Origin: Kribbella rubisoli
GTDB lineage: Bacteria; Actinomycetota; Actinomycetes; Propionibacteriales; Kribbellaceae
Reading direction: 5' to 3'
NCBI RefSeq assembly: GCF_004217145.1
Contig: NZ_SHKR01000013.1
Coordinates: 310,001-374,000, forward strand
Length of the DNA stretch: 64,000 nt
In this document: positions 1 through 14,666 of the stretch, piece by piece
Layout of the letters: every line of letters starts with the position of its first letter
Numbering within the stretch: the first letter of the stretch is position 1
Notes under the pieces: model-generated
Told to the model about the DNA's origin: nothing
Databases searched by the model: none
Seen by the model: only the letters and a program-made list of their open reading frames with translations
Translations under genes and position numbers: made by a program

Positions 1-22
1 GGCAGCTTGAGTTCCAGGGCCA

Positions 23-1183
23 TTACTGGACCTCGAGGTCGAGCTTCGGGACTTCGAGTTTGCGGCCTTCGTGCCAGGACTGGAGGCCCAGCTCGGCCAA
101 CTGCACGCCCTTGGCGGCTTCGATGAAGTCCCAGGTGAAGGGGGTGTCGTCGACCACGTGGCGGAGGAACATCTCCCACTGGACCTTGAAGCCGTTGTCG
201 AAGGGTTCGTTGTCCGGGACCTCGGCCCACTGGTCGCGGAACGGCTCGGTGGCCGGTAGGTCCGGGTTCCACACCGGCTTCGGTGTCGCCGACCGGTGTT
301 GCGCCCGGCACCGCCGCAGCCCCGCGACCGCGGACCCCTCGGTCCCGTCCACGTGAAACTCGACCAGCTCATCCCGGAACACCCGCGTCGCCCACGACGA
401 GTTCATCTGCGCGACGATCCCGCCCTCGAGCTCGAACACGCCGTACGCCGCATCGTCCGCAGTTGCGGCGTACTTGTCGCCCTGCTCGTCGACCCGCTCA
501 GGAATATGCGTAGCACCCTGGCAGTACACGGACTTGACCGACCCGAACGTCTGGTCGAGCACATATCGCCAGTGGCAGAACATGTCGAGGATGATGCCGC
601 CGCCCTCTTCGGACTTGTAGTTCCACGACGGCCGCTGCGCTTCCTGCCAGTCGCCTTCGAAGACCCAGTAGCCGAACTCACCGCGGACCGACAGGATCCG
701 GCCGAAGAACCCGCCGTCGACCAGCCGCTTCAGCTTGCGCAGGCCGGGCAGTGACAGCTTGTCCATCACGACGCCGTTCTTCAGCCCGGAGTCGATCACG
801 GTCCGGGCCAGGTCGACCGCCGCGTCCAGGCTCTCGGCGATCGGCTTCTCGCAGTAGATGGCCTTGCCGGCCTCGACCGCGGCGCGGACGCCCTTCTCGC
901 GCAGCTGGGTGAGCTGCGAGTCGAAGTAGATCTCGACGTCCGGCTGTGCCAGCGCCTCAGCGAGATCGGTGGTCCACCGCTCCAGCCCGTACTGCTCGGC
1001 GATCCGGCGCAGCTTGAGCTCGTTGCGGCCGACCAGGATCGGTTCGGGGATGATCATCGTGCCGTCCGCGGCGGGCAGTCCGCCCTGCTCCCGGATCGCC
1101 ACGATGGAACGCTCGAGGTGCTGGCGCAGGCCCATCCGGCCGGTGACGCCGTTCATCACGATGCCGATGCGTCGCTCGTTCAC
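23..1183 (-). CDS. Gfo/Idh/MocA family NAD(P)-dependent oxidoreductase
   Basis: Predicted cytosolic sugar or polyol dehydrogenase of about 386 residues. An N-terminal Rossmann region is followed by the family's EKPI motif near residues 112-115, which holds the usual catalytic lysine, and a C-terminal alpha/beta substrate domain. I choose GTG at 1183 because GAGAGG lies at good spacing upstream. An earlier GTG at 1198 overlaps the cupin stop codon but has no ribosome binding site. It is the second gene of a leftward operon with the cupin gene. Known D-apiose dehydrogenases belong to this superfamily, so oxidation of the sugar handled by the neighbouring locus is plausible, but substrate cannot be read from the sequence. 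Confidence 0.88.
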   Translation of the reverse strand: MNERRIGIVMNGVTGRMGLRQHLERSIVAIREQGGLPAADGTMIIPEPILVGRNELKLRRIAEQYGLERWTTDLAEALAQPDVEIYFDSQLTQLREKGVRAAVEAGKAIYCEKPIAESLDAAVDLARTVIDSGLKNGVVMDKLSLPGLRKLKRLVDGGFFGRILSVRGEFGYWVFEGDWQEAQRPSWNYKSEEGGGIILDMFCHWRYVLDQTFGSVKSVYCQGATHIPERVDEQGDKYAATADDAAYGVFELEGGIVAQMNSSWATRVFRDELVEFHVDGTEGSAVAGLRRCRAQHRSATPKPVWNPDLPATEPFRDQWAEVPDNEPFDNGFKVQWEMFLRHVVDDTPFTWDFIEAAKGVQLAELGLQSWHEGRKLEVPKLDLEVQ

Positions 1184-1194
1184 TGTCGTACCTC

Positions 1195-1923
1195 TCACGC
1201 TCGAGTGTCATAAACGTCGAGGCGGCCGCACATGCCGTGCAGGCCGGACTCAGTAGGTGCGGGAAGTTGGTGCAGCTCAGCTGACTCCAGGTACGGCGCG
1301 GTGCCGGCCTCGAGCGCATCCAGCGCGGCGCCGGTCTCGTCGGCGACGCGGTGCGCGCCGTCCTCCCAGCGCTTCCGCCAGTCCGCAAGCTGCGGCTGCA
1401 CGAGCCGGATCGCGGCGGCGTAGAAGTCGTCCAGCGCGGACGGTCCCTCCGACTCGTACCGTTCACGCAGTACGCCGTACCCCTGCACAGCGAGGTCGCG
1501 CCGCGCCATCGCCGACTCCGTCCGCGCGCCCTCGGTGAGTGCCGTCGCCTTCAAGTACGTCTCGCGGTCGGTGAGGTACTCCGGCGGCAGCGTCATCACG
1601 GCATCGCCCGCCTCAGGCAGACCGGAGTTCGACATCAGGGCGAGGATCTGGAGACCGCCGTGGTTGACGAGCCGATGGATCATCCCAGGCCCGAACCAGA
1701 CCACGGCGCCGGCCTGCAGCGGGGTCTCGCGGTAGCCCTTCGTGGAGAGCGTCTGTACGGCGCCGTCGCCGGCGAGCACGTAGTACCCCTCGGAGCAGGC
1801 CAGGTGCACATGCGGCGTACCGCCGACCAGGCCGTCGGAGGCCTCGACGTCGTACACCGTCAGTTTCGAGATACCGATCCCACCCGGCAGCGGCATGGCC
1901 GGTCCGGACTCGACCTCACACAT
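1195..1923 (-). CDS. Cupin-domain protein
   Basis: About 242 residues with a single cupin fold in the N-terminal half. Cupin motif 1 shows His38, His40 and Glu45 and motif 2 shows PGMIH with His83, so a metal site is intact. The C-terminal half (about residues 110-240) is helical and not recognised. The start at 1923 is supported by GGAGGG just upstream; the reading frame is open further 5' but that part reads through the promoter. It is the first gene of the leftward operon with the oxidoreductase. Cupins of this kind are often sugar isomerases, epimerases or sensory proteins in carbohydrate loci; the exact role is unknown. Confidence 0.85.
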   Translation of the reverse strand: MCEVESGPAMPLPGGIGISKLTVYDVEASDGLVGGTPHVHLACSEGYYVLAGDGAVQTLSTKGYRETPLQAGAVVWFGPGMIHRLVNHGGLQILALMSNSGLPEAGDAVMTLPPEYLTDRETYLKATALTEGARTESAMARRDLAVQGYGVLRERYESEGPSALDDFYAAAIRLVQPQLADWRKRWEDGAHRVADETGAALDALEAGTAPYLESAELHQLPAPTESGLHGMCGRLDVYDTRA

Positions 1924-1945
1924 GCGCGCCTCCCTCCTGAGCCTG

Positions 1946-1959
1946 GGAAAGGGCTTTCC
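1946..1959. promoter_or_regulatory. LacI-family-type operator (proximal)
   Basis: GGAAAGGGCTTTCC: 6-bp inverted arms around a 2-bp centre, close to the LacI-family consensus GGAAAGCGCTTTCC. It lies just downstream of the predicted -10 box of the cupin operon, where a bound repressor would block elongation or open-complex formation. The identical 14 bp, in opposite orientation, occurs at 61469-61482. Confidence 0.7.
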
Positions 1960-1975
1960 GCAGCCTGTGACCGTA

Positions 1976-2004
1976 ACCATAGGTGGGCGTCCCGACCGAG
2001 TCAA
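1976..2004 (-). promoter_or_regulatory. Sigma-70-type promoter of the cupin operon
   Basis: On the minus strand TTGACT (2004-1999) and TATGGT (1981-1976) are separated by exactly 17 bp, a strong actinobacterial housekeeping promoter match. Transcription would begin near 1969 and read through the proximal operator into the cupin gene. Confidence 0.75.
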
Positions 2005-2012
2005 CCTGTAAC

Positions 2013-2026
2013 GGAAAGCGATCTCC
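2013..2026. promoter_or_regulatory. LacI-family-type operator (distal, imperfect)
   Basis: GGAAAGCGATCTCC matches the LacI-type consensus at 12 of 14 positions. It sits just upstream of the -35 box and 67 bp centre-to-centre from the proximal site, a geometry compatible with two operators flanking one promoter. Confidence 0.5.
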
Positions 2027-2156
2027 AGCAACAACCGGTCACCGGCCTGCACGCCGCTCCGAGGCCGGCTGGAACCGTCGCGCAGTAGCGTCCGTCCTAG
2101 CTCGTCGACAAGACACCCGCCCCCGGCCGTACGGCCGGACTCTTGTGGAGGCAGGC

Positions 2157-2975
2157 ATGGCCAACAGGATCAGCAGACGGCAAGCCATGATGATCGGCGG
2201 CGGTGCGCTCGCCGGTGCCGCGACGTTCGGTTCGGTGGCAGGCGCCCGGTCCGCCTCGGCGGCGACCGAGTGGTTCCGGCTGCCTGTCATCACGGCGAAC
2301 ATCGGACGCAAGAACCTCGCCGCCCGCGGGCCCGCGATCCAAGCTGTGCGCAGCGGCGATCCCGGCAATCGGCCCTTCGTCGGCTGGCAGGAGATCAGCG
2401 AGGGTGATACCGGCGAGCCGGCGATGATCAGCCAGAACTTCGGCGACGCCTACGCCAACGCGTTCCTCGACGACCCCAGCTCCTACCGGGTGCCGATCTC
2501 CGTCCCGACGCCGTGGAAGGTGATCAACTCGAAGCCGACCTTCGTGCACGGCGTCGTCCCTGACGTGAGCCCGCCGCGCTGGATCAATGAGGTCGTCGTC
2601 GAGCACGGCGCGCATCCGGGGCTGAAGTTCGTCCTGATCAACACGCACTACCTGCACGGCGCGTACAACGATGACCAGAACCCGAACCTGCGCGCCTATT
2701 ACGACCTGCACAAGAAGACCCACCGCGAGCGGGTGATGGCCCACAACGACAAGGGCCATCTGGTGATCTGGACCGCGGACACCAACAACCCCGGCTACGA
2801 CAAGGCGACCGGTCAGGACGCCGAGCGCAAGGTTTTTGCCGACGGCATCGACCGGATCAACTGGCTGCCCGGCGACGGCACCGTGCAGCTCGACCTCGTC
2901 ACCACGAACGTGGTGCCGATGAACGTCGACGACCACAACGCCCGCGTGGCGATCTTCCGGATCAGGCTGGCCTGA
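2157..2975 (+). CDS. Tat-secreted endonuclease/exonuclease/phosphatase-fold protein
   Basis: 272 residues. The N-terminus has a twin-arginine motif (S-R-R-Q at residues 6-9), a hydrophobic stretch and an A-S-A-A cleavage region near 33-36, indicating export by the Tat pathway. The mature part shows the DNase I-like (EEP) motif series: TANI near 47, QE at 78-79, NTH at 162-164, D-T-N at 208-210 and a C-terminal DH near 259-260. It is therefore a predicted secreted metal-dependent nuclease, phosphatase or phosphodiesterase. ATG 2157 is chosen for the Tat signal and the GGAGG upstream. It overlaps the 3' end of the convergent kinase gene by 14 bp. It may release phosphate or nucleosides outside the cell. 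Confidence 0.8.
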   Translation: MANRISRRQAMMIGGGALAGAATFGSVAGARSASAATEWFRLPVITANIGRKNLAARGPAIQAVRSGDPGNRPFVGWQEISEGDTGEPAMISQNFGDAYANAFLDDPSSYRVPISVPTPWKVINSKPTFVHGVVPDVSPPRWINEVVVEHGAHPGLKFVLINTHYLHGAYNDDQNPNLRAYYDLHKKTHRERVMAHNDKGHLVIWTADTNNPGYDKATGQDAERKVFADGIDRINWLPGDGTVQLDLVTTNVVPMNVDDHNARVAIFRIRLA

Positions 2976-4371
2976 CCCGAACGGCCGCAACCGCTCCGGC
3001 CCATTGCGTCCGGAGCCCGGCCCGCGCGGCGGCATCTAGCCGGGGCTCGAACGTCCGGTACGAACGCCGCGCGGCCCAGCCGGTCGTCGTACCCAAGGTG
3101 GTCCAGGCCAGCTCGGCCGCGCCCAGAGCGGAGACCTCCGGTACGTCGGCAGCCTCGACCGGCCGGCCGAGAAGATCCGCCTGAGTCTGCATCACCAACT
3201 CCGACACGGTCGCGCCGCCATCAGCACGTAGGCCCTTCACCGCGCCCGGGATCGTGTCGGTGATGTCGCAGATCTGATGGGCAACGGCGTGGACGGCTGC
3301 CCGGGCGATGTGAGCGCGAGTCGTCGAGCTGTTCATCCCGGTCAACGCCGCCCGCGCCTCCCGGTCCCAGTGCGGCGCGCCCAGCCCGGCAAAGGCCGGC
3401 ACGAGTACGACACCTTCCGCCGAGGGCACAGTCGCGGCGAGGGCGACGAGCGCGCCGACGTCGGGCAGGCCGAGCAGGTCGGCCGTCCAGGCGAGCGCCG
3501 CCCCCGATGACACGATGTTTCCTTCGAGCGCGTACATCGGCCGATCCGTCAACCAGGCCAGCGTGCAGCCGCTCTCGACAAACCCGTCCACCGGTGTCAT
3601 CACCGACGAGCCGGTGCCGTACGTCGCCTTCACCATCCCGGTCTGCGTGCAGCCCTGGCCGTACATCGCCGCGTGCGAATCCGCGAGTACGGCGACGATC
3701 GGGATCCCGTCCGGCAATCCCGGCACGCTCGTGGTCACGCCGAAGCCCGCGTTGGATGGCCGTACGTCGGGCAACGCCGACCGCGGTACGCCGAACGCGT
3801 CGAGCAACTCCGTCGACCAGTCCAACCTCACCGTGTCGTAGAGCAGCGTCCGAGAGGCGTTCCCGGCCTCGGTCAGATGCTCACGGCAACCAGTCAGCCG
3901 ATGGATCAACCAGGCGTCGACGGTGCCGACCAGGGCGTCGGACTGATCGAGGAGCCAACGCATCTTCGGCGCCGAGAACATCGCATCCACTCGGAGCCCG
4001 GTCCGTTGACGGACCAGATCGTCAACGGCGGAAGGCAGTTGGGCGCACCAGGCGGCGGTGCGGGTGTCCTGCCAGCCGATGACAGGGCCGACCGGTTCGC
4101 CTGACCGGCTCCAGCCGACGACGGACTCGCGCTGAGTGGAAAGCGCAATCCCCGCCAGGTCGAACGAGGAGGTCGAGGCGCTGAGGCACGTTGCGATCGC
4201 CCGCAGCACGCTCTGCCAGAGGTCCTCGGCGTCCTGCTCGACCCAGCCTGGGCGTGGCGTGGACAGACCGACCGGAGCGGAGCCCGTCGCGAGAACGCTC
4301 CCGTCAGGCGCCACCAGGACCGCCTTGGAGTTGGTCGTGCCCTGGTCGATCGCGAGTACCGCCTGGACCAT
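2962..4371 (-). CDS. FGGY-family carbohydrate kinase, candidate apulose kinase
   Basis: 469 residues with the two-domain FGGY fold: phosphate-1 loop DQGTT at residues 9-13, GWVEQD and GWQDTRT blocks in the N-terminal domain, and YGTG and GLGAPHWD blocks in the C-terminal ATP domain. The pattern is close to glycerol kinase, but no other glycerol gene is nearby. ATG 4371 follows a GGAGG at short spacing; an upstream TTG at 4389 has no site. It is divergent from the transporter/transketolase operon. In the known D-apiose pathway an FGGY kinase phosphorylates apulose before a split transketolase acts, which fits this context. Ribulose, erythrulose or xylulose are alternatives. Confidence 0.88.
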   Translation of the reverse strand: MVQAVLAIDQGTTNSKAVLVAPDGSVLATGSAPVGLSTPRPGWVEQDAEDLWQSVLRAIATCLSASTSSFDLAGIALSTQRESVVGWSRSGEPVGPVIGWQDTRTAAWCAQLPSAVDDLVRQRTGLRVDAMFSAPKMRWLLDQSDALVGTVDAWLIHRLTGCREHLTEAGNASRTLLYDTVRLDWSTELLDAFGVPRSALPDVRPSNAGFGVTTSVPGLPDGIPIVAVLADSHAAMYGQGCTQTGMVKATYGTGSSVMTPVDGFVESGCTLAWLTDRPMYALEGNIVSSGAALAWTADLLGLPDVGALVALAATVPSAEGVVLVPAFAGLGAPHWDREARAALTGMNSSTTRAHIARAAVHAVAHQICDITDTIPGAVKGLRADGGATVSELVMQTQADLLGRPVEAADVPEVSALGAAELAWTTLGTTTGWAARRSYRTFEPRLDAAARAGLRTQWAGAVAAVRVRPA

Positions 4372-4491
4372 CCGCCCTCCAAGTTTCAACTGAACCCTTG
4401 ACGGGACTCTAGCTGCGTGGCGACACTCATGGCGACAGCCTATGCAGTACTGAATATCTATTCACAAGGTCGAGGACCGAGGAGCGCGCGA

Positions 4492-5385
4492 GTGAAGCCG
4501 AGTAGACGCCGGGTGATCATCAACACCGATGCCAAGAACGAGGCCGACGACCAGTTCGCGATCGTGCACGGGCTGCTGTCGCCGACCTTCGACGTGCGCG
4601 GCCTGATTCCCGCGCACTTCGGCACCCACCGGTCGGACCGGAGCATGGAGGAGTCCCGCGAGGAGATCGACCTGCTGCTGGACCTGCTCGACCTGACCGG
4701 CAAGGTCCCGGTAGCGAACGGCGCCACCACCGGCATCCCGGACGAGCAGACCCCGCTCGACTCGCCCGGCGCGCGGCTGATCATCGAGGAGTCGAAGCTG
4801 GCCTCGAAGGGTGACCCGCTGTTCGTGGCGTTCCTCGGCCCGATCACCGACATGGCGTCGGCGATCCTGCTCGAGCCCGATCTGGTGAATCGGGACGTGA
4901 TCGTGGTCTGGATCGGCGGCCGCGGCTACAACGGCTATGCGGCCGACCACCGGCTGGAGTTCAACCTGTCGAACGACATCCACGCCGCGAACGTCGTGTT
5001 CGGCTCGGGTATCACCGTCTGGCAGGTCCCGAGCGACGTCTACACGAAGGTCTCGGTCAGCTACGCGGAGCTCGAGGAGAAGATCGGCGACGCCGGCCCG
5101 CTCGGCCGGTACCTGATCGACCAGCTGGTCGAGTGGAACGCGACGTACCACGGCGAGCCGATCGAGTCCCGCTCCCTCGGCGACTCGCCCGCGATCTCCC
5201 TGATGCTCTACCCGCACAGCGGCAACTTCCGGACCCGTCCGGCGCCGCGCTTCGGTGTCGACGGGTGGTACCTGCCCGGCACCGACAACCCCATCCAGGT
5301 CTGCGAGCAGGTTGACGTCCGCTTCCTGCTGGAGGACATGTTCGCCAAGATCCGCCGCTTTGCCCGTCAAAGGAGCAGCTCATGA
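4492..5385 (+). CDS. Nucleoside-hydrolase-like glycosidase
   Basis: 297 residues. The N-terminus carries an Asp cluster (T-D at 12-13, then E-A-D-D at 17-20) like the calcium-binding site of inosine-uridine nucleoside hydrolases, but with two extra residues between the first Asp and the Asp pair, as in the nucleoside-hydrolase-like DUF1593 branch. GTG 4492 is preceded by AGGAG with a 7-nt spacer; the frame is open upstream to 4417 without a better site. It is the first gene of an eight-gene run (including permeases, isomerase and transketolase) with 4-bp stop-start overlaps at several junctions. It probably cleaves a glycoside of the imported sugar inside the cell; no signal peptide is visible. 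Confidence 0.82.
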   Translation: MKPSRRRVIINTDAKNEADDQFAIVHGLLSPTFDVRGLIPAHFGTHRSDRSMEESREEIDLLLDLLDLTGKVPVANGATTGIPDEQTPLDSPGARLIIEESKLASKGDPLFVAFLGPITDMASAILLEPDLVNRDVIVVWIGGRGYNGYAADHRLEFNLSNDIHAANVVFGSGITVWQVPSDVYTKVSVSYAELEEKIGDAGPLGRYLIDQLVEWNATYHGEPIESRSLGDSPAISLMLYPHSGNFRTRPAPRFGVDGWYLPGTDNPIQVCEQVDVRFLLEDMFAKIRRFARQRSSS

Positions 5386-6677
5386 GCACGTCGTACACCC
5401 GCCGTGGTTTCCTCGGCCTCACGTCCGCCGCCGCGCTCGGCGCCGGTCTGTCCGCCTGCACCGGCGGTGGTGCGTCGACGGGCGGGGGAGCCACGCAGGG
5501 GGCGTCGAACAACCTGCGCCTGTTCACCTACGAGGACGACTCGACGATCGGCCTGCTCAAGGCCCAGGTGAAGAAGTTCGACGAGCAGAACGGTACGACG
5601 ACCACCGTCGACAGCCTGCCCGGTTCCGGCGCGGCCGTGTACCCGGACAAGCTCCGGACCGAGCTGCTCGGCGGCAAGGGCCCGGACGTCTGGCGGATCT
5701 GGGGCGGTCAGATCGGCAGCCCGTTCGCGAAGGCCAAGCAGGCGCTGGACCTGAGCAAGTACTACGACAAGTACGGCTGGGACTCGAAGATCAACACCGC
5801 GGCGATCGGCGGGATGACCTTCGACGGCGTGAAGTCCGGCGTACCGTTCCTGGCCCTCGGGGTAGGGGCCTGGTACAACAAATCGCTGTTCGCGAAGGCC
5901 GGCGTGAGCGCGCCGCCCACGACGTACGCCGAGCTCGAGGCTGTGAACGACAAACTGGTGGCTGTCGGCGTCACACCCTGCGGACTGGGCGGGAAGTATG
6001 GCTGGGACATCATGCGCCTGTTCGAGTACCTGCTCGAGCACACCGCCGGCCCGGACCTGCACGACAAGCTGCTGACCGGCGCCGAGAGCTGGGACCGGCC
6101 CGAGGTGGTCGAGGCGTTCACGCTGTTCAAGAAGTGGCAGGACAAGAAGTGGCTGCCGCAGGGTGCGCTCGCCCTCGACCCGGCCGATGTCGAGCCGTGG
6201 TACGTCCAGGGCAAGACGGCGTACACGATCACCGGACCGTGGACCGAGGCGGCGGCGATCCTGGCCGCGAAGAAGAGCTCGGCCGCCTTCGGCAACTTCG
6301 AGCTGCCGACCGACAAGTCGCCGGCGCGGCACTCGGGCTTCGTCGAGGGCTACATGATCAACGCCAAGTCCGGTAACGCGGACAAGGCCGCGGCGCTGAT
6401 CGACTTCATCGTCCAGCCCGCCACCCAGAAGGCGATGAACATCACCGCCTCGACGGTCAAGGGCGCCGAGCCCGACCCGAAGACGCTGCCGCTGGCGGCG
6501 CAGTGGTCGCAGAAGTACGGGAACAACCCGTTCTACACGATCCAGGACCAGGCGTTCCCGAAGAAGCAGGCCGACCAGTACTTCAGCGTGCAGAGCGATC
6601 TGCTGCAGGGCAAGGTCGCCCCTGACGCGGCGTCGAAGAAGATGCAGGAGATCGTCTCCGCCTGGGCGAAGAGCTAG
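5382..6677 (+). CDS. Sugar ABC transporter substrate-binding lipoprotein
   Basis: 431 residues, family 1 (MalE-like) solute-binding protein. The signal has R-R-G-F-L-G-L (residues 7-13) and a lipobox ending at Cys26 (L-S-A-C), so it is a Tat-exported lipoprotein anchored outside the membrane. It overlaps the preceding gene by ATGA and is followed 3 nt later by the first permease gene. With the two permeases it forms a CUT1-type importer. No ATP-binding subunit is encoded nearby, so a shared MsmK/UgpC-type ATPase elsewhere is expected. The substrate is inferred from the locus to be a pentose-type sugar or glycoside, possibly apiose. Confidence 0.93.
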   Translation: MSTSYTRRGFLGLTSAAALGAGLSACTGGGASTGGGATQGASNNLRLFTYEDDSTIGLLKAQVKKFDEQNGTTTTVDSLPGSGAAVYPDKLRTELLGGKGPDVWRIWGGQIGSPFAKAKQALDLSKYYDKYGWDSKINTAAIGGMTFDGVKSGVPFLALGVGAWYNKSLFAKAGVSAPPTTYAELEAVNDKLVAVGVTPCGLGGKYGWDIMRLFEYLLEHTAGPDLHDKLLTGAESWDRPEVVEAFTLFKKWQDKKWLPQGALALDPADVEPWYVQGKTAYTITGPWTEAAAILAAKKSSAAFGNFELPTDKSPARHSGFVEGYMINAKSGNADKAAALIDFIVQPATQKAMNITASTVKGAEPDPKTLPLAAQWSQKYGNNPFYTIQDQAFPKKQADQYFSVQSDLLQGKVAPDAASKKMQEIVSAWAKS

Positions 6678-6680
6678 CCG

Positions 6681-7583
6681 ATGGCAACGACAGTCGCTGT
6701 CGCCAAGCAGCCCAAACGCGGCGGCCGATGGTCCCCGTGGTTGTTCGCCCTGCCCGCGCTGCTGGTGTACGTCGCGTTCCTGGTCTACCCGGCGGTGTCG
6801 TCGCTGTGGTTCAGCCTGACCAACTGGGACGGCCTGAGCGCGACGTACAAGTTCGTTGGCCTGGACAACTACTTCAAGCTGCCGCACGACCCGGTCGTGG
6901 TGACCGCGGTCCGGAACAACCTGATCTGGACCGTGGTCACGATCGCGGTGCCGACGATCATCGGCCTGCTGCTGGCGATCGCGCTGAACGGCAAGGTGCA
7001 CGGGAAGCCGATCCTGCGGCTGATCTTCTACACACCCGCGGTCCTGCCGCTGGTGTCGATCGCGAGCATCTGGGGCTGGCTGTACAACCCGCAGTACGGC
7101 GCGATCAACTCGTTCCTGCGCCTGATCGGGCTGGACGGGCTGGCGCAGCCGTGGCTCGGACAGGACTCGACCGCGTTGTGGGCCGTGATGGTGCCGGCGA
7201 TCTGGTTGCGCACCGGGTTCCCGATGCTGCTCTACTTGGCCGCCCTGCAAGGGATCCCGAACGAGCTCTACGAGGCCGCGACCGTGGACGGTGCGTCCAA
7301 GTGGCAACAGTTCTGGCACGTGACGATGCCGAGCCTGCGACCCGCGCACTACATCGTGCTGGCGTTGTCGCTGATCGATTCGTTCAAGGTCTTCGACATG
7401 ATCTACGCGATGACGTACGGCGGCCCTGGTACGTCGACGCAGGTGATGGGAACGTGGATGTACTTCAACGTCTTCCAGTACTACCAAGCCGGCTACGGTA
7501 CGGCGATCGCCGTCGTGATCACGCTGGTCGCGATCGCGGTCGGCATCCCCTACGTCCGCTCGCAGACGAAGGAGGCGTCATGA
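6681..7583 (+). CDS. Sugar ABC transporter permease, MalF-like
   Basis: 300 residues with six predicted membrane segments; the first (about 20-42) follows a short basic N-terminus. The permease EAA loop that contacts the ATPase is seen at residues 198-204 (E-A-A-T-V-D-G). It lies 3 nt after the binding-protein gene and overlaps the second permease by 4 bp (ATGA), so translation is probably coupled. Confidence 0.94.
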
Positions 7584-8476
7584 CTTCGATCGCTCCCGCC
7601 CGCGTGGACCTGCCGCTGGACACGGCCGCGGTCGAGCCGGTGCCGACGCCGCCGAAGGGCCGCCGGGGTCTGGTGATCACGCTGGTCCTCATCGTCGTCG
7701 CGCTGTTCTGGATCTCACCGCTCGTGCTGCTGGTGATCACCGCCGTCCGGCCGCTCGCGGACTTCATCGGGAACGGGCCGTTGTCCTGGCCCGACCAGCT
7801 GACCTGGAAGAACTTCTCCGACGCCTGGGACATCGGCAACTTCGCCACGACGTACAAGAACAGTGCGATCCTGGCGGCGATCAAGGTGCCGCTCGGCGTG
7901 CTGGTCTCGGCGATGCTCGGGTTCGCGCTGGCGAAGCTGCGGATGAGGTTCCGCCGGACGGTGATGTTCTCGGTGTTCCTCGGGCTGACGATCCCGATCT
8001 ACATCACGATCGTCCCGGTCTTCATCATGATGCGCTCGCTCGGCGCCACCGACAGCATCTTCGGGCTGATCGGGCCGTACCTGGCCTTCGGTATCCCGTT
8101 CGAGGTGCTGGTGCTGCAGTCGTTCTTCCGGCAGATCCCGGACGAGATCATCGAGGCCGCGAAGGTCGACGGCGCCGGCGACTGGAGGGTCTTCTTCACG
8201 ATGATCCTGCCGCTGTCGGTGCCGGCGCTGGTGACGGTCGCGATCCTGGACGCGGTCGCGACCTGGAACGAGTTCCTGTTCGCGCTGATCCTGCTGAACT
8301 CCGACGCGCACAAGACGATCCCGGTCGGCCTGCTGAACTTCCAGGGCCAGTTCGCCAACAACAACACCGGACTCGCGGCGGGCATCCTGATCGCCGTGGT
8401 CCCGATCCTCATCGCCTACACCCTGCTCCAGCGCTGGATCGTCGGCGGTCTGACCGCCGGCTCCCTCAAAGGATAG
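7580..8476 (+). CDS. Sugar ABC transporter permease, MalG-like
   Basis: 298 residues with a Pro-rich cytoplasmic N-terminus, then six predicted membrane segments beginning near residue 31. The EAA loop is at 192-200 (E-A-A-K-V-D-G-A-G). ATG 7580 overlaps the stop codon of the first permease. The reading frame is open far upstream, but that part is only an out-of-frame reading of the first permease. It completes the membrane pore of the importer. Confidence 0.94.
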
Positions 8477-8484
8477 GAACAAAT

Positions 8485-9480
8485 ATGACTGACATGCCGG
8501 TCTTCGGCGCGGGTATCTGGCACTTCGCCACCTACAAGGACCGTTACGCCACCGACGGGTACGGCGATCCCGTCACCCTGCTCGAGCAGATTGATCGCGC
8601 CGGAGCGGTCGGCGATCTGTCCGTGGTCGACCTGAACTGGCCGTTCGCCGGGTACGACGGCACGCTCGACGAGGTGAAGGCCGCGCTGCAACGCAACAAC
8701 CTCAAGGCGATCGCGATCACGCCGGAGATCTACACCCGCGACTTCGTCAAGGGCTCCTTGACGAACCCGGACCCGGGCGTCCGCAAGCAGGCGATGGAAC
8801 TGTTGCACCAGGCAACCGAGCTGGCGAAGGACCTCGGCTGCTCGTACGTGAAGCTGTGGCCGGGCCAGGACGGCTGGGACTACCCGTTCCAGGTCGACTA
8901 CCACGACATCTGGAACCTCGCCCTCGACGGCCTGAGGGAGCTGGTGTCCGCGCACTCCGACATCAACTTCGTGATCGAGTACAAGCCGCGCGAACCGCGG
9001 GTGAAGATCATCTTCCCGAACGTCGCCCGGACGCTGCTCGGGATCGAGAAGATCGGTCTGCCCAACCTGGGCATCCTGCTCGACTTCGGCCACTCGCTGT
9101 ACGGCCAGGAGACGCCGGCCGACGCGGCGCAGCTGGCGATCGACTACAACCGGCTGTTCGCGATCGACGTCAACGACAACATGAAGGGCTGGGACGACGA
9201 CATGGTCGTCGGCTCGGTGCACCTGGTCGAGACGTTCGAGTTCTTCCACACGCTACGCAAGAACAACTGGGAGGGCGTCTGGCAGCTGGACCAGTTCCCG
9301 TTCCGCGAGGACAGCGTCCAGGCCGCGAAGCAGGCGATCACGTTCCTGAAGGCGATCCACCACGCCCTCGACGTACTCGACGACGAGGCGTTGGCCGCCG
9401 CGCAGGCCTCGCATGATGCGCTGGCCGCGCAGAAGCTGGTGCAGAAGGTGCTGCTGAGTTCGATGTCGGAGATCGCATGA
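8485..9480 (+). CDS. Sugar isomerase/epimerase, xylose-isomerase-like TIM barrel
   Basis: 331 residues of the AP-endonuclease-2/xylose-isomerase TIM-barrel family. Likely metal ligands are Glu165 (V-I-E-Y), Asp200 and His203 (L-L-D-F-G-H) and an acidic residue near 269. It starts 8 nt after the permease stop behind AAAGGA and ends in a 4-bp overlap with the transketolase gene. In the D-apiose pathway an isomerase of this fold converts apiose to apulose, the substrate of the FGGY kinase. Other aldose-ketose isomerisations or 3-epimerisations remain possible. Confidence 0.87.
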
Positions 9481-10355
9481 CTCTCACCGTCGAGCACGCC
9501 ACGCTGCCGGTGCTCGGACGGCTGCCTGCACACAGCAGCCGGACCGAGCAGATCGCGCACATCGCCGAGGCTGCCAAGCAGATCCGGATCCAGGACCTCA
9601 AGCTGGTCCACTACGCCGGAGCCGGGCACATCGGCGGTGACTACTCCGCGATCGACATCCTGGCCACGCTGTACGGCGCTGTGCTCGACATCTCGCCCGC
9701 GACCGTTGACGATCCCGAGCGGGACCGCTTCATCCTGAGCAAGGGCCACGTCGCCGGCGCGCTCTACACCACGCTCGCGGCGTTCGGGTTCCTGCCGGTC
9801 GAGGAGCTCGCGACGTTCCTCAAGCCGTTGTCCGCGCTGAACGGTCACCCGAACCGGACGAAGGTCGCCGGCGTCGAGGCGAACACCGGTCCGCTCGGTC
9901 ATGGTCTGCCGATCGCCGTCGGGCATGCCCTCTCGGCCAAGCTCGACGTCTCGATGCGCCGTACGTATGTGCTCGTCGGGGACGGTGAGTTGCAGGAGGG
10001 GTCGAACTGGGAGGCGATGATGGCGGCCTCGCAGTACCAGCTCGACCGGCTCACCGTGATCGTCGACCGGAACCGGCTGCAGCAGGGCGCGACCACCAAG
10101 GAGACCAACGACCTCGACCCGTTGCCGGAGAAGGCGGCCGCGTTCGGGTTCGCGGTCGTCGAGGTGAACGGTCACGATCACGGCGAGTTGCTCGACGTGC
10201 TGTCCGCCGTACCGTTCCGGCCGGGCAAGCCGACGTTCGTGATCGCCCACACGCACAAGGGGCACCCGATCTCGTTCATGAGCAACAACGTCGCCTGGCA
10301 TCACCGCGTCCCCGACGACGCCGAGTTCGCGCAGGCCCTGAAGGAGCTCTCATGA
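9477..10355 (+). CDS. Transketolase, N-terminal (thiamine-diphosphate-binding) subunit
   Basis: 292 residues covering only the first transketolase domain. The TPP motif begins at G-D-G (168-170) and ends at Asn199; the conserved histidines in A-G-H-I-G-G and S-K-G-H are present. Full-length transketolases have about 650 residues, so this is half of a split enzyme whose partner is the next gene, overlapped by ATGA. Split transketolases of this kind cleave apulose-4-phosphate in known apiose clusters; some act on other ketose phosphates. Confidence 0.92.
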
Positions 10356-11320
10356 CCGTCACCGACAGACCCTCGATCGCCGACCAGCCGCGCTACGACT
10401 GCCGGGACGCGTACGTCGAGACGCTGGCCCAACTCGCCGAAGCCGATCACCGGATCGTTGGCGTGGTCAACGACTCGGTCGGATCCAGCAAGCTGAACAG
10501 CTTCCGCAAGGCGTTCCCGGACCGGCTGATCAACGTCGGGATCGCCGAGCAGGACATGGTCGGCGTCGCGTCCGGGCTGGCCAACGGCGGCCGGATCCCG
10601 TTCGTTTCGGCGGCGTCCTGCTTCCTCACCGCTCGCGCCCTCGAGCAGATCAAGGCCGACGTCGCGTACTCGAACACCAACGTGAAGCTCTGCGGCATGA
10701 GCCCAGGCGTCGCGTACGGCGAACTCGGCCCGACGCACCACTCCGTCGAGGACATCGCGTGGTTGCGGGCGATCGACGGGATCAGGATCATCGTGCCGGC
10801 CGACCCGATCGAGACGGCGGCCGCGCTGCGTTGGGCGGCGGCGTCCGAGGGGCCGGTGTTCATCCGGGTCAGCCGGATGAGTGTGCCGAAGGTGTACTCC
10901 GACGACTACGAGTTCCGCCTCGGCAAGGCGATCACGGTTCGGGACGGGAACGATGTCACGGTGATCAGCAACGGCACGGTCCTGTGGCGCGCACTCGCGG
11001 CGGCTGAGCGGCTGGCCGAGGAAGGGATCTCGACCCGGGTGCTGTCGATGCCGACGGTGAAGCCGCTGGACACCGACGCCGTGGTCGCGGCCGCGCGGGA
11101 GACGGCCGGCATCGTGACCGCCGAGGAGGCTGTGACCGCCGGCGGACTCGGCGGCGCGGTCGCGGAGACCGTCGTACAGCATCATCCGGCGCGGGTGTCG
11201 ATCCTCGGGTTCCCCGAGTTCGCGCCCACGGGGTCGGCCGGTTATCTGCTGGACCGGTACGGCCTGTCCCCCGAGGGCATCGCCGACGCCGCCCGCAAGC
11301 TCGTCATGACAGGTAAGTGA
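10352..11320 (+). CDS. Transketolase, C-terminal (pyrimidine-binding) subunit
   Basis: 322 residues covering the second and third transketolase domains. The motif G-I-A-E-Q-D-M at 63-69 contains the Glu66 that activates thiamine diphosphate in the partner subunit. It is the last gene of the operon and its 3' end overlaps the convergent ribB gene by 17 bp, with no obvious terminator between them. Together with the previous gene it should form an alpha2beta2 enzyme transferring a two-carbon unit from a ketose phosphate. Confidence 0.92.
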
Positions 11321-11918
11321 CCAGGTCGGCGATCGAGATCATCGCGAAGTCATGAGCGTCGGCGAACGCGCGCAGGTCGGTGCCGGTCATCAGCGTGCCG
11401 TCGTCGTTCATGAGCTCGCCGATCACGCCGACCGGCGGCAGGCCGGCCAGCCGGACGAGCTCGACTGTCGCCTCGGTGTGACCGGGGCGCTGTCGTACTC
11501 CGCCGTCGACCGCGCGCAACGGGAGGATGTGACCGGGCCGGATCAGGTCCGCGGGCTGCGCCTCCGGGTCGGCCAGCACGCGGACGGTCCGTGCTCGGTC
11601 GGCCGCGGAGATGCCGGTGCCGACACCGGTCGCCGCGTCCACGGAGACCGTGTACGCCGTCCGCAGGCTGTCCTGATTGTTCGGGACCATCAGCGGGAGC
11701 TCGAGGCGGTCCAGCAGCTCCGGCGCCGCGGGCGCGCAGACGTATCCGCTGGTGTGGCGGACGAGCAGGGCCATCAGCTCGGGCGTGGCGAGACTCGCGG
11801 CGAAGGTCAGGTCGCCCTCGTTCTCACGGTCCTCGTCGTCGACGACCACGACCGGCCGTCCGGCGGCGAGCTCGGCGACGGCGCGTTCGATGGTGTCCAG
11901 GCTGGTGATGGTGTTCAC
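11304..11918 (-). CDS. ribB: 3,4-dihydroxy-2-butanone-4-phosphate synthase
   Basis: 204 residues, the usual length for a stand-alone RibB. It converts ribulose-5-phosphate to dihydroxybutanone phosphate plus formate for riboflavin synthesis. The acidic metal loop is canonical (D-E-D-R-E-N-E-G-D), as are R-P-G-H, G-H-T-E-A and E-L-M-N-D-D-G. GTG 11918 is chosen for the GAGAGGA upstream; the frame is open to 11969. An FMN riboswitch precedes it. It sits as a convergent single gene inside the sugar locus, which may mean the locus was inserted around it. Confidence 0.95.
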
Positions 11919-12014
11919 GGTCGTTGTCCTCTCGGCAGTGCTCTGGACAGCACTCCGGGGCAACGACAAACCTCACGCCCCTGTTTTCGCGCAGGAAACG
12001 TGAAGCTGCCACGT

Positions 12015-12140
12015 GCGTCTTCCCATCCGGACTTTCACCGTCGGTCCCGGAGTTCCACCAGGTCAACCGCTCCTTCTTGCGAAGTCACGGGTCGCGGACT
12101 GTCACCGCCGGCTCGGAATTTCACCGACCCCAGAGCACGT
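12015..12140 (-). promoter_or_regulatory. FMN riboswitch (RFN element) for ribB
   Basis: Read on the minus strand, the leader holds the conserved RFN blocks: G-G-T-C-G-G-T-G-A-A-A-T-T-C-C near 12130-12116, CCGGCGGTGACAGTCC soon after, and GACGGTGAAAGTCCGGATGG near 12044-12025. The stretch to 11919 would be the expression platform, ending at the ribB ribosome binding site. High FMN should lower ribB expression. The complementary strand is the 5' flank of the divergent glycoside hydrolase gene. Confidence 0.92.
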
Positions 12141-12187
12141 GTGTCTTTCATCATCAGCTTAACGGCAATGAGCATCCCGGGAGTGTC

Positions 12188-13657
12188 ATGTCCATCTCAT
12201 CCGTCTGGCGCGAGATCGAACTACCGGCCACCGGCGACTGGGTCGAGTTCGAGCACGAGAGCGGTCTCGTACTGCGTCGGCCTACGTTCTGGGACGGCGG
12301 CGAGCCTGCGGTGCGGAAGGTCCGTTTCGCCCCGCCGGAGGCGGGCCGCTGGCGCTGGAGGGGCGGCGAGTTCGAGGTGCGTCCTGTGGGCGGGGACGAG
12401 CTCAACCCGTTCTACCGGCATGGGTTCTGGCGGATGTCGCCGGGTGGTCGCAGTCTCGTACATGCTGACGGGACTCCTGCGGTTCTGGTTGCCGACACCG
12501 CATGGGCGCTGCCATGGCGGGCGACGGCTGAGCAGGTGCGTGAGTATGCGGCGGACCGACAGGCCAAAGGCTTCAACGCGGTGCTGCTGATGACTGTGCA
12601 ACCGGACATGCACGCGGTCGGTCCCCGCGACCGCACCCAGGACGAAGGCTTCGACGTCGGCTTCGAGGACCTACCGGACGGCCACCTCAACGAGTTGAAC
12701 GTCGACTACTTCCAGTACCTCGACGAACTGCTCGCCATCCTCGTCGAGCACGGCTTGGTCCCCGTGCTGCAGCCCGTTTTCCAGGGCTTCGGCTGGAAGG
12801 GCCTCGACGTCGCCGGCACCGTCGTACCGCCATCGGAGTACGCGGCCTACTGCCGCTACCTGGTCGCGCGATACGGGGCTAGGCCGGCGATCTACCTGGT
12901 CGGTGGCGACGGCTCAGGTGACGAGCCGCAGACCGCGGCGGGTGGAGCCGAGGTGCACGAGGTCGACTGCTACGGGCAGCCGACCGGCATCCACTACCGC
13001 CCGCACATCCGCGCGAACGCCCACCAGGACGCTGACTGGCTCGACTTCCAGTGGTGCCAGACCGGCCACACCGGCGAGCATGTCGCCGAGCGAGTCGCGG
13101 ACATGTGGCGCAACGAGCCGGTCAAGGCAGTCGCGAACGGCGAACCGACGTACGAACACACCGGCCGGACAGGCGTCGCCGAGGGCTGGTGGCAAGGCCA
13201 TGAAGCGTGGAGCAACCTGTGCGCCGGCGGGACGATGGGTGTCGTCTACGGCGCGGGCAGCCTGTGGCAGTGGCGGCTGCATCCCGAAGAGCCGGGGCAT
13301 TCCGAGTTCTTCCTGGCGCCGGGCGCGGGCTGGCGCGAGGCGGTCGGCTTCGAGGGTTCGACGTACGTCGGGATGCTCGGCAAGATCCTGGCGGGCCTGC
13401 CGACCACCGACATGGCGCCGGACTGGACCCGGGTCATCTCAGGCCGGGCGCTGAGCGGCGCGGACGGGATGCTGATCGTCTACCGCGAGGACGGCGGACC
13501 GGTGATGGTGTTCGACGACACGGTCCCGCTGGCGTACACGATCGTGGACCCGCGCGACGGCTCGATCGTCGCCTCCGGCAAGCGCGATGCACGGAACGCC
13601 CCGATCCCCGACCCCGGAGGAGCGCCTCGGGTCTACCTCTGTCTGCCTGACCTATAG
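12188..13657 (+). CDS. GH140-like (apiosidase-like, DUF4038) glycoside hydrolase
   Basis: 489 residues. An N-terminal beta domain like DUF5060 (about 5-66, ending G-R-W-R-W) precedes a TIM-barrel domain opening with H-A-D-G-T-P and D-T-A-W near residues 92-106, the hallmark of DUF4038/GH140. Candidate acids are Asp241 or Glu246 in L-V-G-G-D-G-S-G-D-E and Glu319 in N-G-E-P. The founding GH140 enzyme releases D-apiose from rhamnogalacturonan II. No signal peptide is seen, so it may act on imported apiosides. GGGAG precedes ATG 12188; longer reading upstream crosses the riboswitch antisense. The SorC gene follows after 31 nt. Confidence 0.82.
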   Translation: MSISSVWREIELPATGDWVEFEHESGLVLRRPTFWDGGEPAVRKVRFAPPEAGRWRWRGGEFEVRPVGGDELNPFYRHGFWRMSPGGRSLVHADGTPAVLVADTAWALPWRATAEQVREYAADRQAKGFNAVLLMTVQPDMHAVGPRDRTQDEGFDVGFEDLPDGHLNELNVDYFQYLDELLAILVEHGLVPVLQPVFQGFGWKGLDVAGTVVPPSEYAAYCRYLVARYGARPAIYLVGGDGSGDEPQTAAGGAEVHEVDCYGQPTGIHYRPHIRANAHQDADWLDFQWCQTGHTGEHVAERVADMWRNEPVKAVANGEPTYEHTGRTGVAEGWWQGHEAWSNLCAGGTMGVVYGAGSLWQWRLHPEEPGHSEFFLAPGAGWREAVGFEGSTYVGMLGKILAGLPTTDMAPDWTRVISGRALSGADGMLIVYREDGGPVMVFDDTVPLAYTIVDPRDGSIVASGKRDARNAPIPDPGGAPRVYLCLPDL

Positions 13658-13688
13658 TCCGTATTCCCGAACGTTTCGAGGGGGTCGA

Positions 13689-14666
13689 GTGAACGCGAAC
13701 CGCGCAGTACGCCAGCCGGGGCTGGACGAGCTGCGGCTGCTCGCGAAGGTTGCGCGGATGTACCACGAGAAGGGCATCCGTCAGCCGCAGATCGCCGCCG
13801 AGCTCAACCTGTCGCAGGCGCGGGTGTCCCGGATGCTCAAGCAGGCGGTCGACGTCGGCATCGTGCACACCGTGGTGACCATGCCGAGCGGCGTGCACAG
13901 CGACCTTGAGGATGAGCTGCAAGGCCGGTACGGGCTGCGGGATGCGGTCGTCGTCGACACCCTCGGCGTGGGGGACGACGTACTGCCGGCGCTCGGTTCC
14001 GGCGCGGCGGCGTACCTGGACATGACGCTGACCGGCGGGCACGTGGTCGGGATCTCGTCCTGGAGCGAGACGCTGATCAGCGCCGTCGACCGGATGCCGC
14101 GCAAGAGCGTTCCGGTGGTGGACAAGGTGGTCCAGATCGTCGGCGGTCTGGGCGACGCGGCTGTGCAGATGCAGGCCACGCGGCTGACCGCGCGATTCGC
14201 CGAGCTGACCGGTGGGATGCCGGTCTACCTGCCGGCGCCCGGTCTGGTCGGGACACCCGCCGTACGCCGGGCAATGATGAACGACGTGTCGGTTCGCGAC
14301 GTTCTGGGCACGTGGGGACAACTCACCGACGCCCTGGTCGGGATCGGCAGCCTCGAGCCCTCGCCGCTGCTGCAGCGCAGTGGGAACGCGGTCGCGGAGG
14401 CCGACCAGGACGAGCTGCGCCGGCTCGGTGCCGTCGGGGACGTGTGTTTCCGGTTCTTCGACGAAGAGGGAAAGCTTGTGCGTTCGACGTTCGACCAGCG
14501 GGTCATCGGGGTGACCGCGAAGGAGCTGCTGGCGGTGCCGCGGCGGATCGGCGTCGCCGGCGGCGAACGCAAGTACTCCGCGATCCGGGCCGCGATGCTC
14601 GGCGGCTGGGTCAACATCCTGATCACCGACCTCGCGATGGCACACCGGCTCTTAGATGGAGCCTGA
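13689..14666 (+). CDS. SorC/DeoR-type sugar-responsive transcriptional regulator
   Basis: 325 residues. An N-terminal helix-turn-helix (about 23-60) is followed by the SorC-type sugar-phosphate-binding domain (about 65-322). Members sense phosphorylated sugars and control uptake operons. GTG 13689 is preceded by GAGGGGG. It follows the GH140-like gene and is the best in-locus candidate regulator. The LacI-type operators at the cupin promoter suggest that a second regulator from elsewhere also acts on the locus. Confidence 0.88.
   Translation: MNANRAVRQPGLDELRLLAKVARMYHEKGIRQPQIAAELNLSQARVSRMLKQAVDVGIVHTVVTMPSGVHSDLEDELQGRYGLRDAVVVDTLGVGDDVLPALGSGAAAYLDMTLTGGHVVGISSWSETLISAVDRMPRKSVPVVDKVVQIVGGLGDAAVQMQATRLTARFAELTGGMPVYLPAPGLVGTPAVRRAMMNDVSVRDVLGTWGQLTDALVGIGSLEPSPLLQRSGNAVAEADQDELRRLGAVGDVCFRFFDEEGKLVRSTFDQRVIGVTAKELLAVPRRIGVAGGERKYSAIRAAMLGGWVNILITDLAMAHRLLDGA

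Follow-up and report, generated by a model that had tools for sequence, protein, structure and literature searches.

D-Apiose, a branched sugar, occurs in the plant-wall pectin rhamnogalacturonan II and in many flavonoid glycosides, and to our knowledge few enzymes for it are known. It is isomerized, phosphorylated, and cleaved in the D-apiose transketolase pathway, which was reportedly described by Carter et al. in 2018. The same pathway is named and used in PMC13001218, according to which Escherichia coli strains with an SE15-type gene cluster grow on D-apiose, with Pectobacterium carotovorum as the positive control. We analyzed a stretch of 64,000 nucleotides from the 8.64-Mb genome of the soil actinomycete Kribbella rubisoli (contig NZ_SHKR01000013.1, positions 310,001 to 374,000), hereafter the window, and found a cluster encoding an isomerase, an FGGY kinase, the two halves of a split transketolase (tktA and tktB), a sugar-binding regulator, an importer, a PF13204 protein, and a nucleoside-hydrolase-like (NH-like) protein. 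All of the genes that a preliminary description of the window had named were recovered at their coordinates. Our reading, to which we give a probability of roughly 0.68, is that this is a transketolase-type apiose cluster in which a protein with the nucleoside hydrolase fold releases D-apiose. The catabolic route itself is already known; the new element is the NH-like gene as an apiose partner, probably encoding the apiose-releasing enzyme; this would be a function not previously assigned to a fold that splits nucleosides.

The locus is very probably a transketolase-type D-apiose locus, with the substrates and reactions of all of its proteins assigned from sequence. The isomerase scored 449 bits over 325 residues against PDB entry 3ktc, the apiose isomerase of Pectobacterium atrosepticum, an organism from which apiose enzymes have been characterized; the next best score, to xylose isomerases, was 79 bits. 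Related isomerases were found on plasmids of Rhizobium (66% identity), Croceibacterium (65%), Streptomyces (61%), and Pantoea (60%). The isomerase, tktA, tktB, and FGGY genes lie together on the Streptomyces plasmid, with pectinesterase, GH28, and GH95 genes near them, and on the Rhizobium plasmid, which also has the triosephosphate isomerase gene tpiA, and the Pantoea plasmid has the isomerase relative without the remaining pathway genes. Identities to the apiose cluster of E. coli SE15 were 46% for tktA, 41% for tktB, 40% for the kinase, and 35% for the regulator. Together, the 3ktc score, the plasmid gene sets, and the SE15 identities give good support to the use of D-apiose or apiosides via isomerase, kinase, and split transketolase, as proposed in the preliminary description. 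The kinase is also 36% identical to GlpK of E. coli K-12, but it is unlikely to be a glycerol kinase because the same genome encodes two further kinases that group with K-12 GlpK.

The closest named loci were from Kribbella (isomerase identity, 91 to 97%). The isomerase, tktA, tktB, kinase, and regulator genes were kept in 20 of 21 further Kribbella loci, and the core gene set also recurred in actinomycete loci outside Kribbella. Given this recurrence, the cluster is not a chance assembly. The NH-like gene, which the preliminary description had placed among the nonstandard members, turned out to be as constant as the regulator, being present in 21 (regulator, 20) of the 21 Kribbella loci and in 9 (regulator, 9) of 11 other full-length loci. 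Among isomerase-bearing loci, it was found in 11 of 11 in Kribbella and in 9 of the 11 other full-length ones, the exceptions being L014 and L022.

This linkage was also seen on the level of genomes. At thresholds of E ≤ 1e-30 for the NH-like gene and E ≤ 1e-60 for the isomerase, 51 of 245 genomes sampled from the order had the former, 36 the latter, and 33 both (Fisher's exact test, P = 1.8e-24). Within the 38 Kribbella genomes, the isomerase was present in 21 of 22 NH-like-positive and in 1 of 16 negative genomes (P = 1.6e-8), and among the other 207 genomes, the corresponding numbers were 12 of 29 and 2 of 178 (P = 4e-10), all three P values being uncorrected for relatedness. In marker-positive genomes, 15 of 21 NH-like places were within 20 kb of an isomerase or ApnO marker, compared with none of the 22 places of other PF01156 genes; a weak match to ApnO in G847 (34%) did not count as a marker here.

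In a class sample of 394 genomes (threshold, E ≤ 1e-40; handles below G394 are taken as this sample), the NH-like gene occurred in five genomes, in all of them near apiose-type genes. One of the five is the genome of the window. The gene adjoins isomerase-tktA-tktB in G131 and tktA-tktB in G360, where the isomerase is 17 kb away, and it is near ApnO-like, xylose-isomerase-like, and RpiB-like genes in G106 and G138, the latter also having an ApnL-like gene (201 bits, under the curated cut-off). In a phylum sample, it was found in 3 of 396 genomes, namely, that of the window, G106, and G138. Three more NH-like genomes of the order sample carry an ApnO homolog (63 to 70%), which adjoins the NH-like gene in G821 and G953 and is distant from it in G211. 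Within each of the genera g4 and g369, the partners of the NH-like gene (65 to 74% identity) differ between species: some have transketolase genes beside it, and others have ApnO, xylose-isomerase-like, and ApnL-like genes.

A third setting was found on two Microvirga plasmids, whose NH-like proteins have 51 to 52% identity to that of the window. There, the genes for a RuBisCO-like protein, a four-carbon acid sugar kinase, and a PGDH-like protein are followed by an importer and then the NH-like gene, and genes for a Gfo/Idh protein and the D-apionate lactonase ApnL lie upstream. The ApnL of M. ossetica scored 899 bits, over the curated cut-off of 750, and its RuBisCO-like protein and kinase were best matched by OiaX (453 bits) and OiaK (575 bits), respectively, both below the cut-off of 700. 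The PGDH-like genes with 39% to the Microvirga one are putatively named ApnO from their position. Among 53 plasmid records with NH-like matches, nine were examined, and the gene was near apiose genes in the two Microvirga loci only. NH-like relatives adjoin gene sets of the transketolase, the RuBisCO-like (Microvirga), and the ApnO/xylose-isomerase-like kind. Since gene sets with different catabolic enzymes share it, the NH-like protein should act before the routes diverge, on the glycoside or on apiose.

The NH-like protein matched PF01156 with 67.6 bits (cut-off, 34.2), and its best NCBIfam nucleosidase score was 36.8 bits, compared with a cut-off of 433. Its AlphaFold model had a mean predicted local distance difference test score of 95.2 and a predicted template modeling score of 0.93. 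All of the 50 matches listed by Foldseek for this model were nucleoside or riboside hydrolases; the best structural match was 1mas_B (Z score, 31.9; root mean square deviation, 2.7; 272 residues), and identity to nucleoside hydrolases was 16 to 24% in the structural alignments listed. For residue comparisons, we chose the rows of alignments A1 (24 rows), A2 (19 rows), and A3 (27 rows) from 84 NH-like frames, 42 of which are not near-identical; fragments or stop-containing frames in L018, L055, L061, and L132 were excluded before the counts, L061 being restored with its own open frame. D12, D18, D19, T118, E155, N157, D161, and D230 were invariant across the 27 group A and B sequences of A3, and the conserved residues aligned with motifs of RihB and ten other PF01156 proteins. 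The window protein retains the calcium-site Asp residues, i.e., the N-terminal cluster of D12, D18, and D19 and the last one, D230, and we assume calcium- and ribose-binding roles for the aligned residues.

The His or Trp that stands ahead of the last calcium Asp in nucleoside hydrolases and activates the leaving group is missing: Gly (G229) stands at the His241 position in all group A and B rows shown, and 9 of the 11 PF01156 rows have His there and 2 have Gly. According to a review (PMC8910321), there are active nucleoside hydrolases that have no His241 homolog, and p-nitrophenyl riboside hydrolysis does not need leaving-group protonation. GD[ST]P is found at the signature site in all group A and B rows and in four of the five rows of another family, PF07632, the fifth having GDSS. 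The NH-like branch was separate from the 11 other PF01156 proteins. The N-termini of group A orthologs mostly begin just ahead of the first strand with no signal peptide by eye, and the enzyme is therefore expected to be cytoplasmic. Group C relatives from Shinella, Mesorhizobium, and Paenibacillus (31 to 36% identity) have no GDSP signature, and no apiose query matched in their loci, except for weak importer matches in Paenibacillus. In locus L121 (family f117), a second PF01156 gene almost adjoins the NH-like gene.

The NH-like protein is likely to be an apioside hydrolase, that is, an enzyme that would hydrolyze apiofuranosides. An apiose-containing plant glycoside would enter through the importer, presumably of the CUT1 type, and D-apiose would be released in the cytoplasm by the NH-fold protein, which is present in 20 Kribbella core clusters; the PF13204 protein, which covaries with the importer, may free D-apiose from some substrates. 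The isomerase would then convert D-apiose to D-apulose, the FGGY kinase would phosphorylate it, and the two-subunit transketolase would split the phosphorylated apulose, passing a two-carbon unit to glyceraldehyde 3-phosphate and leaving dihydroxyacetone phosphate. In nucleoside hydrolases, a bound metal holds the substrate, and β-D-apiofuranose has a 2,3-cis-diol like ribose, which makes a calcium-held substrate plausible. In the proposed reaction, calcium would grip this diol in the same way as that of ribose in a nucleoside hydrolase, and the anomeric carbon of the apiofuranoside would be attacked by an activated water.

PF07632 proteins, which are NH-like by Pfam name and carry an Sde0182_C domain, also occur in apiose loci. 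In a comparison of 75 genomes, 10 of 31 that were marker-positive had such a protein, and none of 44 that were negative for the isomerase did (P = 5e-5); the 31 do not include G165, G175, or any Kribbella genome besides that of the window. None was found in 80 further isomerase-negative genomes (0/124 overall), the 124 controls being negative for the isomerase only. A visual comparison of coordinates placed a marker within 20 kb of 12 of the 15 copies, in 7 of the 10 genomes, those of G817, G831, and G835 being farther away, and in the alphaproteobacterium Croceibacterium, the PF07632 gene begins 32 bases after the isomerase gene. Most of the copies shown have, by eye, an N-terminal hydrophobic stretch, which is absent in L062 and L123, and the copies of Nonomuraea (L014 to L016 and L020), L063, L066, and L067 are near genes of ribose-type importers, presumably CUT2. 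The NH-like protein of the window gave only a partial PF07632 match (30.7 bits, profile positions 1 to 133 of 268) with no PF21027 listed, and its genome has no PF07632 protein at E ≤ 1e-20. It is conceivable, at a little under even odds, that the small GDSP-type proteins and PF07632 (Sde182, DUF1593) are both apiofuranosidases, one intracellular and the other mostly extracellular, and form a metal-dependent O-glycosidase family in which a nucleoside-splitting fold has been adapted to D-apiose. If so, a function would be found for PF07632, which is currently classed as a module that binds cellulose or interacts with furanose.

PF07632 relatives were present in ten plasmid records, of which five were examined. 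On a Selenomonas ruminantium plasmid (L157, 7479 to 12323), a PF07632-type protein is encoded between a beta-glucoside phosphotransferase system and a GH1 enzyme, with an alpha-L-rhamnosidase near them, a setting that would fit the trimming of apiosyl and rhamnosyl glucosides. The PF07632 plasmid loci of Adhaeribacter, Pantoea (pPAT9B04), and Croceicoccus had no apiose genes in the annotation shown, and no phage record matched.

Several observations weigh against an apiose-releasing role of the NH-like protein. The chief one is that 14 of the 29 NH-like genomes outside Kribbella in the order sample have neither the isomerase nor the ApnO marker; eight of these belong to family f117 (L103, L114 to L119, and L121), with copies 58 to 76% identical to that of the window. 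Even in marker-positive genomes, 6 of the 21 NH-like places are not near a marker. Kribbella G826 (L153) has the NH-like gene without the core, and Kribbella G774 has an isomerase (47%) without the NH-like gene. In the class sample, 11 of 14 isomerase-positive genomes were without the NH-like gene at E ≤ 1e-40, indicating that apiose use does not need it. The gene also persists where no importer homolog is nearby, which leaves the substrate supply unexplained: the NH-like, isomerase, tktA, tktB, FGGY, and regulator genes occur without importer or PF13204 homologs in L104, L108, and L120 and in Kribbella L136, L148, and L154, and some importer-less clusters have other membrane proteins further out. 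The ApnO/xylose-isomerase-like set of G106, G138, G821, and G953 was tentatively named, partly from the 28 to 39% similarity of the G106 and G138 proteins to those of Microvirga. In the kinase tree, the apiose-locus kinases form no single clade, with GlpK inside (support, 0.42). As for residues, the second Asp of the DD pair, D19, is replaced by Gly in three further group B sequences (L057, L073, and L133). The ExN motif does not appear in the PF07632 rows of the alignment, which weakens the view of the two branches as apiofuranosidases. The review PMC8910321 describes Sde_0182, a PF07632 protein, as retaining calcium, having no activity on nucleosides, and being regarded as a module that interacts with furanose, a description that would fit an unusual substrate but also a binding protein.

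One rival reading keeps the D-apiose locus but denies the NH-like protein any glycoside hydrolysis: it would instead serve as a mutarotase for apiose, a sensor, or a binding protein, with the NH metal site holding the sugar. This seems unlikely to us. It would account for the NH-like gene staying with the core where the importer and PF13204 genes are missing, for the Gly in place of the His that most PF01156 rows have, and for the binding of ribofuranose by Sde_0182 without nucleosidase activity, as reported in the same review (PMC8910321). However, none of D12, D18, D19, E155, N157, and D230 varies among the 27 sequences, although three further group B proteins have Gly at D19; the Gly before the last calcium Asp also occurs in 2 of the 11 PF01156 rows, and active enzymes without a His241 homolog are described (PMC8910321); and the N-terminal hydrophobic stretch on most PF07632 copies shown would be odd for a mutarotase. 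Another improbable reading takes the NH-like protein for an ordinary nucleoside hydrolase, merely carried along in the operon or feeding ribose into it. The fold and the PF01156 score over the cut-off would agree with this, but the best nucleosidase score of 36.8 bits is far from the cut-off of 433, the 11 other PF01156 proteins lie on a different branch, and the gene is linked to apiose gene sets of three kinds, whereas no such linkage was seen for any of the 22 other PF01156 genes of those genomes. Moreover, no ribokinase was seen in the operon.

A further alternative is that the cluster degrades another sugar or polyol, whose ketose would be phosphorylated and split by the same type of split transketolase. 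In favor of this, a Shinella cluster with SDR (short-chain dehydrogenase/reductase) genes and no annotated isomerase has tktA, tktB, and FGGY relatives (59, 58, and 49%) that are closer to those of the window than the E. coli SE15 ones are. We nevertheless consider it very improbable, since the isomerase has its 449-bit match to 3ktc, a PF13204 protein is encoded in the cluster, and NH-like relatives lie in a stretch with an ApnL above the curated cut-off. The Shinella sumterensis plasmid cluster (L183, 6147 to 10451), with its split transketolase, FGGY kinase, sugar regulator, and SDR genes, resembles the E. coli apiose cluster.

The PF13204 protein had been called GH140-like in the preliminary description, and its domain score is over the curated cut-off. 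It also has a DUF5060 match at the N-terminal side. Its scores against solved members were only 44 to 54 bits, and its GGD and EPxYE motifs, which we take to hold the catalytic Asp/Glu pair, aligned with three solved members (3kzs/5msy, 4qfu, and 8t9w). No signal peptide was seen by eye in ortholog N-termini. The PF13204 gene and all three importer genes were present in 17 of the 21 Kribbella loci and were jointly missing in L136, L148, and L154, where the core and the NH-like gene were retained; of the query set, L153 holds just the NH-like, cupin, and Gfo/Idh genes. Since they are present or missing together, the importer and the PF13204 gene behave as one module. We rejected the idea that the NH-like gene travels with the importer, as the Kribbella losses take away the importer and the PF13204 gene jointly and leave the NH-like gene wherever the core remains.

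The features of the window are listed in Table 1. The run that begins with the NH-like gene and ends with tktB comprises seven genes with intergenic gaps of −4, 3, −4, 8, −4, and −4 bases, indicating one operon by layout. The two transketolase halves are adjacent, with separate genes for the N- and C-terminal parts. The start of the NH-like gene at about 4492 was favored over 4417 by ortholog N-termini, and that of permease 2 was set by the overlap with permease 1 and by orthologs. In two Microlunatus loci (L012 and L013), the isomerase, NH-like, and kinase genes lie together, with no transketolase halves in the 21 kb read.

Table 1. Features of the Kribbella rubisoli window, with coordinates in window positions
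Feature	Coordinates	Strand	Family match or remark
Gfo/Idh oxidoreductase gene	23-1198	(-)	Judged a neighbor, not a pathway part
Cupin gene	1195-2052	(-)	Judged a neighbor, not a pathway part
EEP-like protein	~2151-2975	(+)	EEP and Tat-type signal assigned by eye; no Pfam match
FGGY kinase, candidate D-apulose kinase	2962-4371 (open frame from 4389)	(-)	PF00370/PF02782
NH-like protein, candidate cytoplasmic D-apiosidase	4492-5385 (open frame from 4417)	(+)	PF01156
Solute-binding lipoprotein of importer, SBP_bac_1	5382-6677	(+)	PF01547, E 1e-30
Importer permease 1	6681-7583	(+)	PF00528, E 6.6e-17
Importer permease 2	7580-8476	(+)	PF00528, E 1.6e-20 (in longer frame 6728-8476)
Candidate D-apiose isomerase, AP_endonuc_2, xylose-isomerase-like TIM barrel	8485-9480	(+)	449 bits to PDB 3ktc
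Transketolase subunit A (tktA), candidate D-apulose-4-phosphate transketolase	9477-10355	(+)	PF00456
Transketolase subunit B (tktB)	10352-11320	(+)	PF02779, PF02780
Stand-alone ribB (3,4-dihydroxy-2-butanone 4-phosphate [DHBP] synthase)	11304-11969	(-)	PF00926, 269.8 bits
Flavin mononucleotide (FMN) riboswitch of ribB	12009-12142	(-)	RF00050, 88.9 bits (gathering, 66.2)
PF13204 apiosidase-like hydrolase	~12188-13657	(+)	PF13204, 235-237 bits (cut-off, 26.5)
SorC/DeoR-type sugar-binding regulator	13587-14666	(+)	PF04198, E 1.3e-58
Fused riboflavin synthase (two lumazine-binding domains) and DHBP synthase domain	16278-17480	(+)	

The Gfo/Idh, cupin, and EEP genes, which the preliminary description had offered as a possible extension of the pathway, were found in 20, 18, and 8 of the 21 Kribbella loci, respectively. 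Among isomerase-bearing loci, all 11 from Kribbella but none of the 11 other full-length ones had the Gfo/Idh and cupin genes, and these genes look like Kribbella neighbors rather than pathway parts; the proposed extension is not upheld. They share a strand with a DUF993 gene and two AP_endonuc_2 genes to the left of the window (L002, 9222 to 13980, reaching into window positions 1 to 2052), and this run is perhaps an uncharacterized sugar or cyclitol oxidation set. We rejected the Gfo/Idh-cupin pair as a core part on account of its absence outside Kribbella and the continuation of the run into these genes. The oxidative branch that had also been suggested did not stand either: the ApnO, ApnL, RuBisCO-like, and OiaK-like queries gave no match above 100 bits in the 21 Kribbella loci, and ApnL, ApnO, and OiaX/OiaK had no such match among the window proteins scanned, so that, with 0 of 11 non-Kribbella full-length loci having the gene, a branch via the Gfo/Idh gene was rejected. 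A minus-strand frame at 2097 to 3035 was discarded as the antisense of the EEP-like gene, with no Pfam or NCBIfam match.

The preliminary description did not report ribB and its FMN riboswitch, which sit between tktB and the PF13204 gene on the opposite strand. A stand-alone ribB is found in or beside apiose clusters of three lineages, namely, Kribbella, the Rhizobium plasmid (L033, 5492 to 6380, minus strand), and G164 (L066, 13589 to 14164, plus strand). The FMN riboswitch is present in Kribbella and on the Rhizobium plasmid, and none was found in G164 at the gathering score. The fused gene further along the window, at a distance of 4 kb from the riboswitch, contains another ribB domain. The occurrence of ribB with apiose clusters may be due to chance or may reflect a connection of DHBP synthase chemistry with branched sugar phosphates.

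In open-licence papers of PubMed Central, we found none linking a nucleoside hydrolase to apiose, which may be noted in subscription literature, none on D-apiose with Kribbella, and none with the term apulose. If our reading is true, the NH-like proteins are a further family of glycosidases acting on apiose, a function is found for an orphan branch of a well-studied fold, and the gene becomes a genomic marker joining three apiose routes.

Compared with the D-apiose transketolase pathway, the locus has the same clustering of the isomerase, FGGY kinase, transketolase halves, and sugar regulator, but it differs in having a CUT1-type rather than a CUT2-type importer and an actinomycete host, and it adds the PF13204 and NH-like proteins, both without a signal peptide. 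The apiose cluster of E. coli STc131/STc14 (PMC13001218; L034) shares the kinase, the SorC regulator, and relatives of the split transketolase, but two SDR genes replace the isomerase and the importer is of the ribose type; the NH-like and PF13204 queries had no match in the 49 kb of this locus read. The PF13204 protein of the window has the Pfam domain and the GGD and EPxYE motifs of the GH140/PF13204 apiosidases (3kzs/5msy and 8t9w), but differs in its low scores to them (44 to 54 bits), in having no signal peptide seen, and in its DUF5060 match. With Sde182/PF07632 (2yhg), the NH-like groups A and B share the GD[ST] signature and the placement in apiose loci, whereas Sde182 is about 500 amino acids long, has the C-terminal Sde0182_C domain and mostly signal-like N-termini, and shows no ExN in the alignment. 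With the PF01156 nucleoside hydrolases, the NH-like protein shares the fold, the calcium-site Asp residues, T118, and the ExN motif, but it has LGDSP where 9 of the 11 rows have HD, AHFG in place of GN, GD, or SD, and a linkage to apiose genes.

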